A stretch of 32,491 nucleotides of DNA, taken from IMG/VR virus record IMGVR_UViG_3300030101_000881, positions 2,156-34,646 of that record. One strand, written 5' to 3'. A model generated the notes under the pieces. That model searched no databases. It was given only the letters and a program-made list of their open reading frames with translations, and had not been told where the DNA came from. Each line of letters opens with the position of its first letter. The first letter of the stretch is position 1. Source of the stretch: a virus. The position numbers and the translations under genes were made by a program. Of this stretch, positions 5,409 through 32,491 are shown piece after piece.

Positions 5409-6928
5409 TATTTAGATGATTTAGGATGTTTTTTAGGTAACAAATCATAATCGGTTGTGTATTTAGCATTTTGTGGTCTACCATTTTTTATTAGATATAA
5501 AAAGGCATTGACTCTTGCAAACGCCCATTGAGATGGACTCTTTACGTTTGGACTATGTGAAGTGTTAAAAGCTCCTAAGCCTCTTTGAAATACACTAGCC
5601 AGCATACCTACAGTAACACCATAACCCAGCTTTTCTTTATATCTCTTGTTAAAGTCATTTGCCTTTTTTGTTAAAGTAGCTCTGTCTTTTGCAGATACCT
5701 TAGCCCCTGTTTTACCCTTTGCACTACCACCTGCACTACCCTTACCTTTTGGGTTCTTGTTAGGTGTATCTGATTTTGGTGCTTTAGGAGATTTACGAAT
5801 GCCACCTTTAGGTCCTACCTCTGCCAGAATGTGTTGTTCACATGGCATGTACCATTTTTCATCTTCTATTTCATGTATGTGAAATCCTTTACAACCTATA
5901 TCTTCTGCTCCTTTTTCTGCTTTTTCTTGTGTATTATACCCCAACCTTCCGTTTATAATAGCATATTCATCAGATACTTTTATAAATTCTTCTGCAAGCT
6001 TTGTTTTATCTATTTGTTTTAGCTTGTTAATAGCCCAGTTTACACCAGAGCTACCACCCCAAGCATCCCACATTAGACCACCACATCCTTCTGAGTAAGG
6101 CACATCTTTGTTTTGTTGGTGTCTCTTAAAGCTCGCCATCCTAGCTATTGTTGAACGAGAGATACTAGCACCTGATGCTAATTGTGAAGCTCTTCTCCAT
6201 CCTACAGGTGTTCCACAACTACTGCCGTTTTCTTCTTTATACTTCAAAGCTCTTCTTGCATTGTTTCTTGCTGACTGTGGATAGTCAGAATAACTTTCTA
6301 GCTCTACATCTTGTATTTCTAAAATGATGTCTTCAAGTTCAAACATCTTAGCTAAAGCACTTAACTCATCTATATCTATTTCTTCCTTTACGCTTTCTCT
6401 TGGTCTTTCATCAAGCTTGTCTGTAAAAAAACCCTCTATACTAAAGCCTTTTACCTTGCCTTCTTTTACAAACTCTTCCCATATCTGGTCGTTGTTTACC
6501 TTAACAGATACCATCCAAGTTCCTACAGGTAAATTAAAGCCATACTTTGCAGACTTGTCTTTTTCTTCATCTTCTATAATCCAACTTTCTACTACACTTA
6601 GTCCTTTTAATTCTACATCATGCTCTAGTGTTGAGTTGTTTTGTTTGCCTTTAGACAGGAACAACTCAGATGCTCTTCTAACAGTGTCTTTAGAGAAGTA
6701 TATAAAATATTCTTTATCGCCACTCTTTCTAAATATCTTTTTGTCAGGAATTAACGCAGCTCCCATTAAGATTCTTTTTTCAGAGTCTACTTCTGCTAAT
6801 TGTATTTGCTGTTCTTTAAGAGCAATAAAATCTTCTTCTATTGCTGGATATTCTACTATAGATATTGCTTCTATTCCAGCAAAATCATTTTCTTCGTCTA
6901 TAAATAGTTCTATAATATCTTGTTCCAT
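5408..6928 (-). CDS. XkdF-like prohead protease polyprotein
   Basis: A 506-aa multi-domain protein. Residues ~18-170 match the XkdF-like putative phage serine protease pattern: EAISIVEYPAIEEDFIAL, GAALIPDKKIFRK, YFIYFSKDTV, LEHDVELKGLSVVESWIIED, GTWMVSVKV, KVKGFSIEGFF. His103 and Ser163 are candidate catalytic residues (inference). Residues ~215-305 form a second module (YPQSARNNARRALKYKEENG, VGWRRASQLASG, WDAWGG). Residues ~345-368 hold CKGFHIHE and MPCEQH, a possible metal site. A Lys/Gly/Pro-rich linker leads to a last module (~415-500) with RGLGAFNTSHSPNV, NAFLYLIKNGRPQNAKYTTD. Such proteins process the scaffold and head during maturation. Start chosen because the ATG ends the CGTTATC element. 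Confidence 0.75.
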   Translation of the reverse strand: MEQDIIELFIDEENDFAGIEAISIVEYPAIEEDFIALKEQQIQLAEVDSEKRILMGAALIPDKKIFRKSGDKEYFIYFSKDTVRRASELFLSKGKQNNSTLEHDVELKGLSVVESWIIEDEEKDKSAKYGFNLPVGTWMVSVKVNNDQIWEEFVKEGKVKGFSIEGFFTDKLDERPRESVKEEIDIDELSALAKMFELEDIILEIQDVELESYSDYPQSARNNARRALKYKEENGSSCGTPVGWRRASQLASGASISRSTIARMASFKRHQQNKDVPYSEGCGGLMWDAWGGSSGVNWAINKLKQIDKTKLAEEFIKVSDEYAIINGRLGYNTQEKAEKGAEDIGCKGFHIHEIEDEKWYMPCEQHILAEVGPKGGIRKSPKAPKSDTPNKNPKGKGSAGGSAKGKTGAKVSAKDRATLTKKANDFNKRYKEKLGYGVTVGMLASVFQRGLGAFNTSHSPNVKSPSQWAFARVNAFLYLIKNGRPQNAKYTTDYDLLPKKHPKSSK

Positions 6929-6940
6929 ACTTTGATAACG
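6926..6940 (-). promoter_or_regulatory. late-gene start element, copy 2
   Basis: Minus strand CGTTATCAAAGTATG, the ATG starting the protease polyprotein. It differs from the 2922 and 14263 copies at one base (A for T). The right half of the palindrome is not kept (TATGGAAC), so the conserved part is the upstream CGTTATCA plus the fixed 4-nt distance to ATG. Confidence 0.55.
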
Positions 6941-13471: not shown

Positions 13472-14265
13472 CTATTTTTTATATGCCTTTTTTATTAAAG
13501 CATTCTCTATTGTTGTTTTATCTTTTATATACTCCAAATACATTAAACAGGTATGTACTGGTAGTTTTGTAGTTTGGTCAATCTTTGCTGCATCTTCTTG
13601 AGCGATTGTAAATATTGATTGATACCAACCCCATTTTTTTCCAAAGTTTGCTTGAGCTGAGGTGGAAGTTCCTTCCCCTTCAACTGCTGCTGTAAATAAT
13701 CCAGCGTATAGCTTGGTAATTTGCTCCCTAAACGATAAAAAAAAACCATTGCTCCTATCGCTACATTAACAGGCATATCTAACATTACATCAGAATATTT
13801 GTGGCTGCCTTCATAATCCATAATCCTATAGAACTCATTCTTCTTAAAGATGACTGGTCTAAACAATACAGCCATTGCTTTATGCATCTTATCCCAATTA
13901 GAGATATAATCATCTAAATCAATGAACTCTCCAAAGGTCATCTCGTCTAGCTTTGGTATAAAACCAAACTCAACAACCGTCTCATCCCCATGTTCGTCTG
14001 TTGCCGACATACTAAATCTAGGCACTAAAGGAGTTTCTTCCTTAAAACAGTTGTTTATGGCATCTATTGCGAAATCAAAGTTGTTTAAGGGAATCTTAAA
14101 TGTGTCTTCAATTTCTAATCCACAGAATATCTGCAGCATCTTTGTCTTTATATATACCTCATCTTCCTTATCCCACTTATCTAGTATTTTAAGATACTTC
14201 TGATACTGTCTAAGGCTTATTCCTGCCAATGCTTGAGGTATAGACAGCTTATATTCCTTTATCAT
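13472..14265 (-). CDS. tail assembly chaperone fusion (G-T type, -1 frameshift)
   Basis: Predicted longer product of the chaperone gene. Ribosomes slipping back one base on the 9-T run would join 176 residues of frame 0 to 88 residues of the -1 frame, giving 264 aa. The -1 frame runs without a stop from the T-run to TAG at 13472 and reads like a real protein: LSFREQITKLYAGLFTAAVE, then NFGKKWGWYQSIFTIAQEDA, then LPVHTCLMYLEYIKDK and ENALIKKAYKK. A KWGWYQSI segment followed by L-x-V/M-H-x-C-L is what I remember for the T part in Bacteroidota phages. As in lambda gpG/gpGT, the minor fusion would bind the tape measure and recruit tube protein. The slip itself is inferred. Confidence 0.75.
13543..14265 (-). 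CDS. tail assembly chaperone (G type, unshifted product)
   Basis: The 240-aa frame-0 product. I start it at the ATG at 14265 (MIKEYKLSIPQALAG), which ends the CGTTATC element; the frame stays open upstream but that part begins with TTG and is not protein-like in context. Core features: QYQKYLKILDKWDKEDE, EFGFIPKLDEMTFGEFIDLD, DKMHKAMAVLFRPV, RIMDYEGSH and MPVNVAIGAMVFF. The FIPKLD-FGEFIDLD and MAVLFRPV pieces match tail chaperones I know from this phage group. After the slip site frame 0 continues with a helical tail (ELPPQLKQTLEKNGVGINQY) that also looks conserved. A 17-nt-spaced TTG/TAGATTTG promoter lies about 105 nt upstream. Confidence 0.75.
   Translation of the reverse strand: MIKEYKLSIPQALAGISLRQYQKYLKILDKWDKEDEVYIKTKMLQIFCGLEIEDTFKIPLNNFDFAIDAINNCFKEETPLVPRFSMSATDEHGDETVVEFGFIPKLDEMTFGEFIDLDDYISNWDKMHKAMAVLFRPVIFKKNEFYRIMDYEGSHKYSDVMLDMPVNVAIGAMVFFYRLGSKLPSYTLDYLQQQLKGKELPPQLKQTLEKNGVGINQYLQSLKKMQQRLTKLQNYQYIPV
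13737..13745 (-). other. slippery T9 run for -1 frameshift
   Basis: Minus strand: ATG GTT TTT TTT TAT in frame 0, nine T in a row. A T TTT TTT heptamer allows both decoding tRNAs to re-pair after a one-base slip, changing the next codon from TAT to TTA. It sits exactly where the -1 frame becomes protein-like. I did not identify a clear stimulatory stem-loop or pseudoknot just after it. Confidence 0.7.
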
Positions 14266-17672: not shown

Positions 17673-18887
17673 TTATCGAATAACATATTTTCCAGAATTT
17701 ACTCCTTGCACTAAATATTGCAGAGAATATCTGATTGCATCTACAAAGTGATTATACTTGTCTATTGGTTTCTGACCTCTCTCGTGCCAGACATAATTAT
17801 TAAACTCTCTAATTATATTGTGTGAGTTTCTCTCTACTATTATCTCATAGTCTTGCATCAAAGCAATACCTGATAAGATACTGCCCTTTCTTTTTATAGT
17901 TGGTCTAATGTTTAGACCTGTGTTCTTTAATTCTTTTATCAATCTAGGTTCAGAACTATCACAGATTATCAAATCTGCCCCACACTCTTTTCTGTTCATA
18001 AATGCTATATCTGACGTAGAAAGCCCTGTTTTACCAAAAACCTCCTTTACATATACTTTTCTTACTTCTCTGTCTACAGACACCTTTACAAGCGTTGTCA
18101 TGTCCATAGAGAACCCAAAGTCTTGCCCATAGCAAGTTAACTCTGTTTGTGCAAACTCTCCAACCTTCCAATTTCTAATTATTGTGCCTTCAGCTTTTTC
18201 CATCCAACCTCCTAAAATAATATGCTCAAACTTAGAAGGAGTTCTACGCTTCATATCCATTATCTGACCAATAAAGGACTTAGATAGATTCTCTTTATTG
18301 TCTTCGTAAGTGGTGTGTATATAAGTTATATCATTTGTAACACCATTGTAACCCCCTTGAATATTTTTATATAAAAAGAATCTCTGATATATCCAATGCT
18401 CTTTTGTAGCTGGATTTAATATTAAAATACATCTGTTTTGTTTACCTTGTGTTCTAATGGAGAAGTCAATCTTGTTAAACACATCCTCTTCTAAAAGCTC
18501 TTCAGCTTCATCTACAACGAAAGTAGTCACACCATTTAAAGATTTAAGAGCTGCAGTTTGATTACCTGATGAGGTCCTGATACCTTTAAACATTATAGAA
18601 CTGTTTGTCTTCAAGTTTATTATCTCATCTTTAGTAATTCTAAAATCACCATGCACATCCATCAAATCAATCTTCTCAATAAACTCAGGAATAATAGAAG
18701 TGTTAGCTGATGTTAAAGTATACCTTGTAAATAGAATCTTATGCCCATGCTCATAAGTTAGGTTCAGTAGAAACAAAGCTACACCAAAACTCTTCCCACT
18801 ACCTCTACCTCCAGTAATCACAAAATATCTACTCTTTGACTGAAACAAAGGTATATATTTACTATGTAAATTTATATTGCTATTCAT
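17673..18887 (-). CDS. terL: terminase large subunit
   Basis: A 404-aa packaging motor of the Terminase_3/PBSX type: an N-terminal ATPase that drives DNA into the prohead and a C-terminal nuclease that cuts genome units. Walker A is GGRGSGKS at 26-33 and Walker B FVVDEAE at 123-129, followed by a LILNPATKEHW coupling region near 154-164. The nuclease domain shows the expected acidic residues: Asp256 in GQDFGFSMD, Asp310 in LIICDSSEP and Asp383 in NHFVDAIRYS. Length is normal for the family. Its start overlaps the end of the small-subunit gene by 8 nt. Confidence 0.95.
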   Translation of the reverse strand: MNSNINLHSKYIPLFQSKSRYFVITGGRGSGKSFGVALFLLNLTYEHGHKILFTRYTLTSANTSIIPEFIEKIDLMDVHGDFRITKDEIINLKTNSSIMFKGIRTSSGNQTAALKSLNGVTTFVVDEAEELLEEDVFNKIDFSIRTQGKQNRCILILNPATKEHWIYQRFFLYKNIQGGYNGVTNDITYIHTTYEDNKENLSKSFIGQIMDMKRRTPSKFEHIILGGWMEKAEGTIIRNWKVGEFAQTELTCYGQDFGFSMDMTTLVKVSVDREVRKVYVKEVFGKTGLSTSDIAFMNRKECGADLIICDSSEPRLIKELKNTGLNIRPTIKRKGSILSGIALMQDYEIIVERNSHNIIREFNNYVWHERGQKPIDKYNHFVDAIRYSLQYLVQGVNSGKYVIR

Positions 18888-29729: not shown

Positions 29730-31016
29730 CTATTGTGTTAATTGTGTTAATAAATTATTTATTTCGGTATCTGTCATACCCTCTGTATCGTAATATCTTA
29801 AATCTTTGCATTTGCTATGTAAAAGACCACCTCCGTTAAATTGTCCAAAACTAAGTGTGGTTGGTTGAAACATAGTATATGTAGTAGTAACAACAGATTG
29901 TAAAACTCCATTAATATAATATTTTGTGTTACCACTTTTATAATATACTGCTATCTTGTTAAAATCTTTAATATTTGTAACTGATTTAGCATTAGTTATA
30001 GCTGCCGAACCACCAATTCTTATTGCATAAGAAATTTTATTAGTACTTGAGCTTGGCTTCAAAATCCTCAATACATTGTTTACTGTTCCATCACTTAATG
30101 TAAAATATCTTTTAAAAGAAGAATTATTTCCATCATATAAATCAGCAAACTCTGCAAAAAATATACCTTGCTCTGAGTTAAATGTACTAGCATCTCCTGC
30201 ACCTGTGCAAGTCTCTGCACTTCTTGTAGTTTGACTATTAGAATCACTTTTTATGTAACTAGAAGCTCTTTTACTAGTAGTTGTTTTTTCAAACTGAGCT
30301 CCCCATAAATAAACAAAAGAATTACCATCTAAAGGAACTGTACTTGTTCCATTTGCTGATGCTTGTCTAATTAATAATGTTCCACTTAAATCTGTTCCTG
30401 AAGTAAACTTAATAATACATCTATACCAGTCATTCGGATATTTCTCTATACTTGCTGTGTGATTAGCATAAGTAGTTCCTACTGCACCTGTAGCTAAATT
30501 AAAAAATGTTTCACCAGTACCCCCTCCATCTGAAAAACTTCCTGTTCTTAAAGCTATAAAATCCATACTACCTTTCTTAGCAAATACGCTAAAATGATAG
30601 TCCTCATCTTCTTCTACTGTTACTGATAAAAACCTTTGTGAAGTGTCTGTTCCTGTACTACCATCATCTGACATCTTAGAGCCATTAAGTTGTCCGTCTG
30701 GACTAGTTGTGGAGTTAGAAGTTACTGAACTCCTTGTTTGACCCCAACTAGAAAAAGATTGACTATACCCAATAATATTAGTAGAGGCAGGCTCTAATAA
30801 TAAACAAGGACAGCTATCTGGAACTCCATCTGTTAACCCATAATATAATCTAGGTGTGTTGTTAGCGCACAACTCCCATAACCCATCTTTATTTAACTTA
30901 TAGGCAGTTGAGCTTCTAGTAAAAGTAAAATCCCCAACACCATTCTCAGGCATGATAGAATATAATTTACTTGCTTTTACACCAGAAGGTATCATTGCTA
31001 AATTAGGTTGTTCCAT
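29730..31016 (-). CDS. fibre / receptor-binding protein with LamG-like end
   Basis: A 428-aa Ser/Thr/Asn-rich protein. It begins with the phage-fibre pattern GDFTFTRSSTAYKLNKDGLW, NTPRLYYGLTDG, CLLLEPASTN (~30-85). A jelly-roll-like carbohydrate-binding section follows (DYHFSVFAKKGSMDFIALRT, DWYRCIIKFTSG, FVYLWGAQFE; ~140-245), then a LamG/concanavalin-like C-terminal domain (GIFFAEFADL, KYYINGVLQS, LSFGQFNGGG, DLRYYDTEGMTDTEINNLL). The protein probably binds host glycans at the tail tip or decorates the particle. It is paralogous to the gene just upstream, with which its start codon overlaps. Confidence 0.75.
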   Translation of the reverse strand: MEQPNLAMIPSGVKASKLYSIMPENGVGDFTFTRSSTAYKLNKDGLWELCANNTPRLYYGLTDGVPDSCPCLLLEPASTNIIGYSQSFSSWGQTRSSVTSNSTTSPDGQLNGSKMSDDGSTGTDTSQRFLSVTVEEDEDYHFSVFAKKGSMDFIALRTGSFSDGGGTGETFFNLATGAVGTTYANHTASIEKYPNDWYRCIIKFTSGTDLSGTLLIRQASANGTSTVPLDGNSFVYLWGAQFEKTTTSKRASSYIKSDSNSQTTRSAETCTGAGDASTFNSEQGIFFAEFADLYDGNNSSFKRYFTLSDGTVNNVLRILKPSSSTNKISYAIRIGGSAAITNAKSVTNIKDFNKIAVYYKSGNTKYYINGVLQSVVTTTYTMFQPTTLSFGQFNGGGLLHSKCKDLRYYDTEGMTDTEINNLLTQLTQ

Positions 31017-32491
31017 TATGAAGTTAATTCTATTAATTGTGCATCTGTTAATGCTTCGTTATATACTGCTAAACCTTTTACTTTTCCGTAAAAGTTATCA
31101 GTACCATTTCCCTCAGCAAACTCTAATGTGTTTAATCCTGTAGGCATTGTTGCTGATGTATCTGTTGCTCCTATTTGAGAGCCATTAACAAAAAGTTTAC
31201 ATTGGTTTAGTTTGTAAGAAACTGCTATTTTATTATACTGCTCTATGCTGATTCCTGATGTTGCTGTAAAAAACACTTCAGAACCACCTGCTCTAACCTG
31301 ACCTACAATATTATTTGAAAGAAATATAATTCTTACACAATTAGTAATATCTCCATTACTCATAGCAATAAACCTATTGCCACCATCTTCATCTCCTTTT
31401 ATCTCTGCATATAAAACACCCTCTGTACTATTTACACTTGGTTTAGAATTGTTACAAGTTTCAGCAGCTCTTGTGATAGTTGTTCCTGCTGTGGGTATGT
31501 ATGATGTAGCGTATGATTGCTGTTCTAATTGATAACCAAATAAAGACACATCTACATTTCTACTTGTTAAATGTCCTCTAACTTCAACACCTACATTTGA
31601 AGTTGCTGTAAGTGTAGCTGTATAAGTAAATCTTTGCCAATCAGGAGTTGCTACAAAAGTAGATGGTGTTCCTCCTCCTGAATGGAAACCTAAAGTAACA
31701 TTGTCAGTAGTGTTAGATTTTGCATACACACTGAATGTAAATGTTGTAGCACCTGCTGTAACTAAATCTCTTAAAACTACTCTGTCAGAACTTGATGAGC
31801 CAACTGTTGCTTGTAGTCTAATTGCGTTTTTAGTACCATCAGGAGATATACTATAATTATTAGTAACTGTATGTGTTTGTGTTCCACTACTAAATGTTTC
31901 TAATGCACCACTTCCAAAAAAGTTAGAAAAGGTAAAAACATTTGTAGAACTCGGCTCTAAAAGTAAATGTGGTTGATCTTCTACTACTCCATTTGTTATA
32001 TCGTAACTTAATCTTGGTCTATCGCCTTGTACTTCTACTACGCTTACATTATTATAAAAACAATGCTTGTCTGTTGCACCACTTGCTGCCACTCTTAAAT
32101 TTATATATGTAGTTGTTGCCGTTGCTGTAAAATTTATTATAAGATTACTTGTAACACTTGTGTTTTGATATAGTTCTCCACCAAATACAGATGTTCCTAC
32201 TTGTACTATTCCGTTTACATTACCTGCGACAAAATCTAATTTCAACCTATAATTACTACCTACAACAGTAGTTACGGCTTGATATATACCACCATTTGAG
32301 GAATCATTTGTGGTTAGTTTTATTCCGTTAGTGTCTAAGGCTATATCTACACCACTAACAGTCCATCTATCATTAGGGTCTACTTGTTTTACTGATACGT
32401 TGTCTATTGATAAAGTCGTGTTGTCGCTTGATGAATATAATCTAATTAAAGTTGCATTAGCTACTATATATTCTGTATAAGTGCCATTAGC
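31016..32491 (-). CDS. large fibre protein, partial (runs off the right edge)
   Basis: The frame stays open to the window edge, so at least 491 aa of a longer protein are present; the TTG at 32245 is internal, not a start. The added part reads NATLIRLYSSSDNTTLSIDN, VSVKQVDPNDRW, as in carbohydrate-binding fibre repeats. A second similar module (FYNNVSVVEVQGDRPRLSYD) follows. The rest parallels the next gene: HLLLEPSSTNVFTFSNFF, FTFSVYAKSNTTDNVTL, GYQLEQQSYATSYIP, then a LamG-like end (GVLYAEIKGDEDGG, KLFVNGSQIG, GLAVYNEALTDAQLIEL). Probably a receptor-binding or tail-fibre protein. Confidence 0.75.
   Translation of the reverse strand, partial: ANGTYTEYIVANATLIRLYSSSDNTTLSIDNVSVKQVDPNDRWTVSGVDIALDTNGIKLTTNDSSNGGIYQAVTTVVGSNYRLKLDFVAGNVNGIVQVGTSVFGGELYQNTSVTSNLIINFTATATTTYINLRVAASGATDKHCFYNNVSVVEVQGDRPRLSYDITNGVVEDQPHLLLEPSSTNVFTFSNFFGSGALETFSSGTQTHTVTNNYSISPDGTKNAIRLQATVGSSSSDRVVLRDLVTAGATTFTFSVYAKSNTTDNVTLGFHSGGGTPSTFVATPDWQRFTYTATLTATSNVGVEVRGHLTSRNVDVSLFGYQLEQQSYATSYIPTAGTTITRAAETCNNSKPSVNSTEGVLYAEIKGDEDGGNRFIAMSNGDITNCVRIIFLSNNIVGQVRAGGSEVFFTATSGISIEQYNKIAVSYKLNQCKLFVNGSQIGATDTSATMPTGLNTLEFAEGNGTDNFYGKVKGLAVYNEALTDAQLIELTS

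Follow-up and report, generated by a model that had tools for sequence, protein, structure and literature searches.

The window, that is, the whole stretch of DNA analyzed here (32,491 nucleotides), comprised bases 2156–34646 of the 34,646-base virus record IMGVR_UViG_3300030101_000881 and had a GC content of 32%. It contained a G-like open reading frame in frame 0 and a T domain in the -1 frame, which shared bases at the 3' end of the former (Table 1). The coding strand, which was left unstated in the preliminary description of this locus, was the minus strand, on which frame 0 around the run of nine T's read ATG GTT TTT TTT TAT CGT TTA GGG. Frame 0 ended with a stop codon at 13543–13545, 63 codons past the T9, and the -1 frame was open from before the T9 to a stop codon at 13472–13474, 87 codons past it; that both frames stay open well past the run had been read from the sequence earlier. 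This T9 was single on both strands of the 34.6-kb record, where 5.7 such runs would be expected by chance in the window. On the coding strand, an A7 at window positions 13634–13640 formed a second in-frame heptamer, A AAA AAT, within the dual-coding stretch. Just 25 of 235 homologues carried an in-frame A AAA AAN there.

Table 1. Features of the G/T locus and associated genes (positions in the window)
Feature	Position	Strand	Basis or remark
G-like ORF, frame 0 (240 aa, alternative C-terminal tail included)	13543..14265	-	ORF, homologues, AF2 model, PHROG 32199
T9 run (putative slip site)	13737..13745	-	
In-frame T TTT TTT heptamer (X XXY YYZ)	13738..13744	-	inside the T9 run
T domain, -1 frame, about 90 aa	13472..13744	-	presumably reached via the slip; KWGWY motif
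Dual-coding stretch	13543..13736	-	same bases for the frame-0 tail and the T domain
T-only coding stretch	13472..13542	-	
Next gene, 152 aa	13011..13469	-	ATG 2 nt past the T stop
HK97 gp10-type tail completion-like protein, 158 aa	12535..13011	-	by reading the sequence; no database match
Likely tape measure protein, 638 aa	6964..8880	-	by reading the sequence; no named match
Terminase large subunit	17673..18887	-	upstream of G/T

The G protein belonged to PHROG 32199, a family of unknown function, and no named family was found for G or T in sequence searches of Pfam, NCBIfam, PHROGs, and PDB. Phage_TAC_7 of Pfam (PF10109) gave an E-value of 0.043 in just 1 of 43 members, and the matches to chaperones in BFVD were weak. 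The AF2 model of G had a mean pLDDT of 85.5 and was confident to about residue 190 (block mean pLDDT of at least 84), with a long predicted helix from residue 166 to 195 that crossed the slip site, followed by two low-confidence helices; T was predicted to be helical with low to medium confidence. A Foldseek search of G against PDB gave no significant match, and alignment of T with VIA-align gave nothing at a Z of at least 2. The HK97 tail assembly chaperone (PDB ID: 2ob9) showed weak fold similarity to residues 3–75 of G (Z 3.7, rmsd 3.6, 66 residues), a Z too low to claim homology, and the G domain here differed from it in being larger and including beta strands. The genes for terminase, protease, portal, and the likely tape measure protein shared the strand of G/T. 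Chaperone genes of the G/GT type are placed between those for the major tail and tape measure proteins; here, four genes separated G/T from the likely tape measure gene and a major-tail-like gene was located beyond it, these last two being assigned only by reading their sequences. The gene architecture, the neighborhood, and the weak fold match suggested that G/T is likely a tail assembly chaperone gene.

When the frame-0 protein was compared with viral contigs, 60 loci with 34–98% identity over most of the protein were obtained, and profile scans and further queries enlarged the set, in which 244 distinct loci were counted. The homologues were located mostly in viral contigs, and five were in Bacteroidota assemblies, including MAGs of Flavobacterium, Winogradskyella, and Psychroflexus; the only cultured relatives were the Nonlabens phages P12024L and P12024S. 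In 243 of the 244 loci, the T domain was found in the -1 frame relative to G, in agreement with the shift on nine T's into a long open frame that had been proposed, and the sole locus in which both seemed to share a frame (L207) had a fragmentary G match. T9 was present in 233 loci, L207 among them, and T10 in 8; of the others, two were truncated and one (L087) had no run. Across 11 clusters there were zero substitutions in the run, its codon phase was conserved, and T TTT TTT was present in all phase-1 runs, so that, as in G/GT pairs, an in-frame slippery sequence at the junction was kept in the homologues. L087 and its near-twin L352 (98%) carried an in-frame A AAT TTT at exactly the same place, which was the only in-frame X XXY YYZ sequence in their overlap. 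The preliminary description would have given way to homologues in which the run was absent and the -1 frame broken; no such homologue was found, as this run-less lineage had a heptamer and an intact -1 frame. In one locus, L060 (2969 region), exactly nine T's were kept though in another codon phase (GCT TTT TTT TTA), a hint that the length of the run may be important in its own right.

Homopolymers are error-prone in sequencing and assembly, and such an error could in principle have split a gene in which G and T truly share one frame. The same frame relation, however, recurred in metagenomes of independent origin and in both isolates, P12024L and P12024S, and the frame-0 extension was intact; an artifact was hence rejected and is almost inconceivable. 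A separate, overlapping T gene with its own start codon, as P12024L gp41 is annotated, was also rejected as very improbable. In the interval from the run to the W motif, neither ATG nor GTG was available for T in 42 of 45 lineages and one was found in just 3, and the conserved T residues started right at the run. T was thus a -1 open reading frame that started at the slip site and had no conserved start of its own, which is the arrangement of G/GT pairs. In most homologues the T stop overlapped or abutted the start of the next gene; therefore, slipped ribosomes would end at the next gene. P12024L gp40 and gp41 (L062:11998–12692) corresponded to G and T of the window's family, and their re-annotation as a frameshift pair is due. 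This pair in P12024L/S (Inhavirus) resembled the window in its homologous G and T, its T9, and its -1 relation, but frame 0 ran just 24 codons past the run and the two were annotated as hypothetical genes.

The heptamer at the T9 was in the right phase for a canonical -1 frameshift, and this phase fits tandem slippage on T TTT TTT. A downstream stem-loop or pseudoknot, or an upstream Shine-Dalgarno sequence, is usual at -1 sites and is not obligatory. In a test of stem-loop folding downstream of the run, the mean z was −0.15 and −0.38, so that no conserved local RNA structure was detected; inspection by eye of the upstream base frequencies likewise revealed no conserved Shine-Dalgarno-like element. 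According to the review PMC5009743, certain tailed phages apparently do without a stimulator, and P2-type slip sites likewise are without downstream structure (PMC3091744). The E/E+E' genes of P2 are further alike in their T-rich slip site (TTTTTTG), their -1 frame, and their being essential tail genes, whereas the P2 run consists of six T's followed by G rather than T9, and P2 frame 0 ends about 20 nt past the shift site.

Slippage of RNA polymerase on the T9 could also give both products. In that case some of the transcripts would carry U10 (or U7) and yield GT by ordinary translation, and U8 transcripts would end G about 5 codons past the run. Runs of nine A or T are known sites of bacterial transcriptional slippage (mxiE and Thermus dnaX; PMC5009743, PMC3711429); the T9 of Shigella mxiE, as cited in PMC3711429, opens another frame as here, but the slippage there is by RNA polymerase and the gene is unrelated. 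The run had 9 or 10 T's in 241 of 244 loci and never 7 or 8, and a length of at least nine T's where the ribosome needs seven counts against a ribosomal slip. TTC at the Z position, which is synonymous in both frames, was never seen though 20% of the Phe codons of these genes were TTC; by our own arithmetic, its absence in 45 lineages has an expectation of 0.8^45, about 4e-5. The recurrence of nine T's in a different codon phase in L060, the lack of detected stimulators, and the absence of any other T9 from the genome also fit polymerase slippage. On the other hand, hydrophobic residues encoded in both frames also call for the flanking T's of the run, and a run of at least nine A or T, as transcriptional slippage would demand of every functional copy, was present in the 241 loci but missing from L087/L352. 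We favored ribosomal over transcriptional slippage because L087/L352 carry A AAT TTT, the canonical heptamer for tandem slippage, and no homopolymer, and we regard the polymerase route as rather unlikely. The preliminary description, which had named the locus a programmed frameshift in a tail chaperone gene, thus stood as to the -1 T frame and the slip site, and the ribosomal route and the chaperone identity are better worded as probable.

Past the run, frame 0 extended for a mean of 61.4 codons (about 184 nt) in 235 complete loci, mostly 52–67 codons, with extremes of 24 codons in P12024-type loci, 15 in one other locus, and 72–86 in some. The average distance from slip to stop in published tail chaperones is 26 nt for SEA-PHAGES and 36 nt for the Xu set (PMC10885494); the failure of frame 0 to stop soon after the slip, which had been singled out as the unusual point, was therefore confirmed against known genes. 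The short tails of P12024L/S and of the locus with 15 codons count against the two-ended reading of the locus.

To evaluate the openness of frame 0, synonymous codons of T were redrawn in 45 lineages with less than 60% T identity. Frame 0 was open for 53–86 codons past the run in 44 of the 45 lineages, and the resampled -1 codons kept it that open in 0.05–4% of cases (p 0.0005–0.043 per lineage), the exception being P12024 (p 0.42). The combined Fisher p was 5e-48 for frame 0 and 1 for the third-frame control, and the third frame stopped within 10 codons in every lineage. The change at four-fold sites, as defined by the -1 frame, was 0.40, 0.57, and 0.69 along the overlap (0.58 overall), 1.04 in the T-only stretch, and 2.48 in the G-only stretch, and the overlap differed from the G-only stretch at p 5e-31 but from the T-only stretch at p 0.06 only. 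Synonymous change was also lowered in the T-only stretch; therefore, part of the slowdown was not due to the overlap. The pairwise identity of the frame-0 tails was 33% versus 25% as dictated by T (mean z 2.0), and their similarity beyond the demands of T, summed over columns, gave z 18.1. This excess peaked in the first columns past the run, with xLGxxL, and again near columns 44–51, with Q....L.E, and the last ten columns were mostly not above the null. In the same test of excess similarity, z was 15.4 for frame 0 in the overlap, 10.6 for the third frame, and −1.1 to 2.5 for the G-only controls. The third-frame excess indicated that part of the signal is plain nucleotide conservation, and that of frame 0 was still larger.

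If the frame-0 tail were non-functional, its openness would follow from -1 coding or from constraint at the nucleotide level. In the window's clade, the rate of change at second positions of frame 0 was roughly sixfold higher in the overlap than in the body of G and close to that in the T-only stretch, which, like the third-frame excess and the short tail in P12024L/S, fits this reading. An unconstrained tail was suggested by this close clade alone, and the wider set corrected it. Frame 0 stayed open far more often than the redrawn -1 codons allow, the excess similarity peaked in frame 0 and was absent in the controls, and no RNA structure was detected; a non-functional tail is accordingly improbable. 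The substitution patterns instead point to a frame-0 tail that is real and only moderately constrained. Both C-termini appear to be under selection, the -1 end strongly and the frame-0 end more weakly yet clearly above the control, so that purifying selection seems detectable in both frames, as would be expected of overlapping genes. The earlier claim that both ends look conserved, for which codon substitution patterns in both frames across homologues had been named as the check, was in this way borne out by openness, synonymous rate, and excess frame-0 similarity.

Taken as a whole, the locus is probably a G/GT-type frameshift gene, most likely of a tail assembly chaperone, with a long dual-coded frame-0 end, in a large family of tailed phages of Bacteroidota (flavobacterial). 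We infer that most ribosomes would pass the T9 in frame and produce G, in which a folded domain (about 175 aa) is followed by a largely helical tail (about 63 aa). A smaller share would move back by one base at T TTT TTT, as the P- and A-site tRNA-Phe could re-pair with UUU, and would produce GT, which has the same domain and a different C-terminus of about 90 aa with the conserved KWGWY region. The frequency of the slip would set the G:GT ratio. By analogy with lambda, G may coat the tape measure protein and GT may recruit the major tail protein; the frame-0 tail may perhaps serve G–G or G–tape-measure contacts and exclude T from most copies. The G/GT system of lambda is alike in its two proteins with a common N-terminus, the minor one made via -1 slippage at an in-frame heptamer (PMC5009743), and in its T domain in the -1 frame. 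It is unlike the present locus in that G and T overlap by just 19 nt as annotated, whereas frame 0 here runs about 190 nt and is dual-coded; the gene order also differs, and no sequence similarity was detected.

The ordinary part of this locus is the frameshifted G/GT-type gene, and what sets it apart is a frame-0 end that is long, dual-coding, and apparently under selection. Two functionally uncharacterized PHROG families would thereby be named as the partners of a frameshift pair in a group of uncultured marine phages that is very common, and the usual rule that frame 0 ends just past the slip would not be general. A long alternative C-terminus raises the question of whether G has a job beyond being GT minus T. 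Such genes are likely missed by annotation tools that depend on a short distance from slip to stop (PMC10885494). There is some chance, though a small one, that the product ratio is set by polymerase slippage on the T9, alone or together with the ribosome, with both C-termini functional and sharing about 190 bases; transcriptional slippage would then have been adopted for phage tail assembly.

Elsewhere in the window, genes on one strand between 773 and 18887 were arranged in an unusual order: terminase, G/T, tail genes, likely tape measure, protease, likely capsid, and portal. A plus-strand open reading frame of 203 codons at 6324–6935 was mostly antisense to the gene of the 506-aa protease. 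At 29730–32245 there were two adjacent, related tail proteins (phrog_5939) with weak to significant LamG-like domains, which perhaps arose by duplication.
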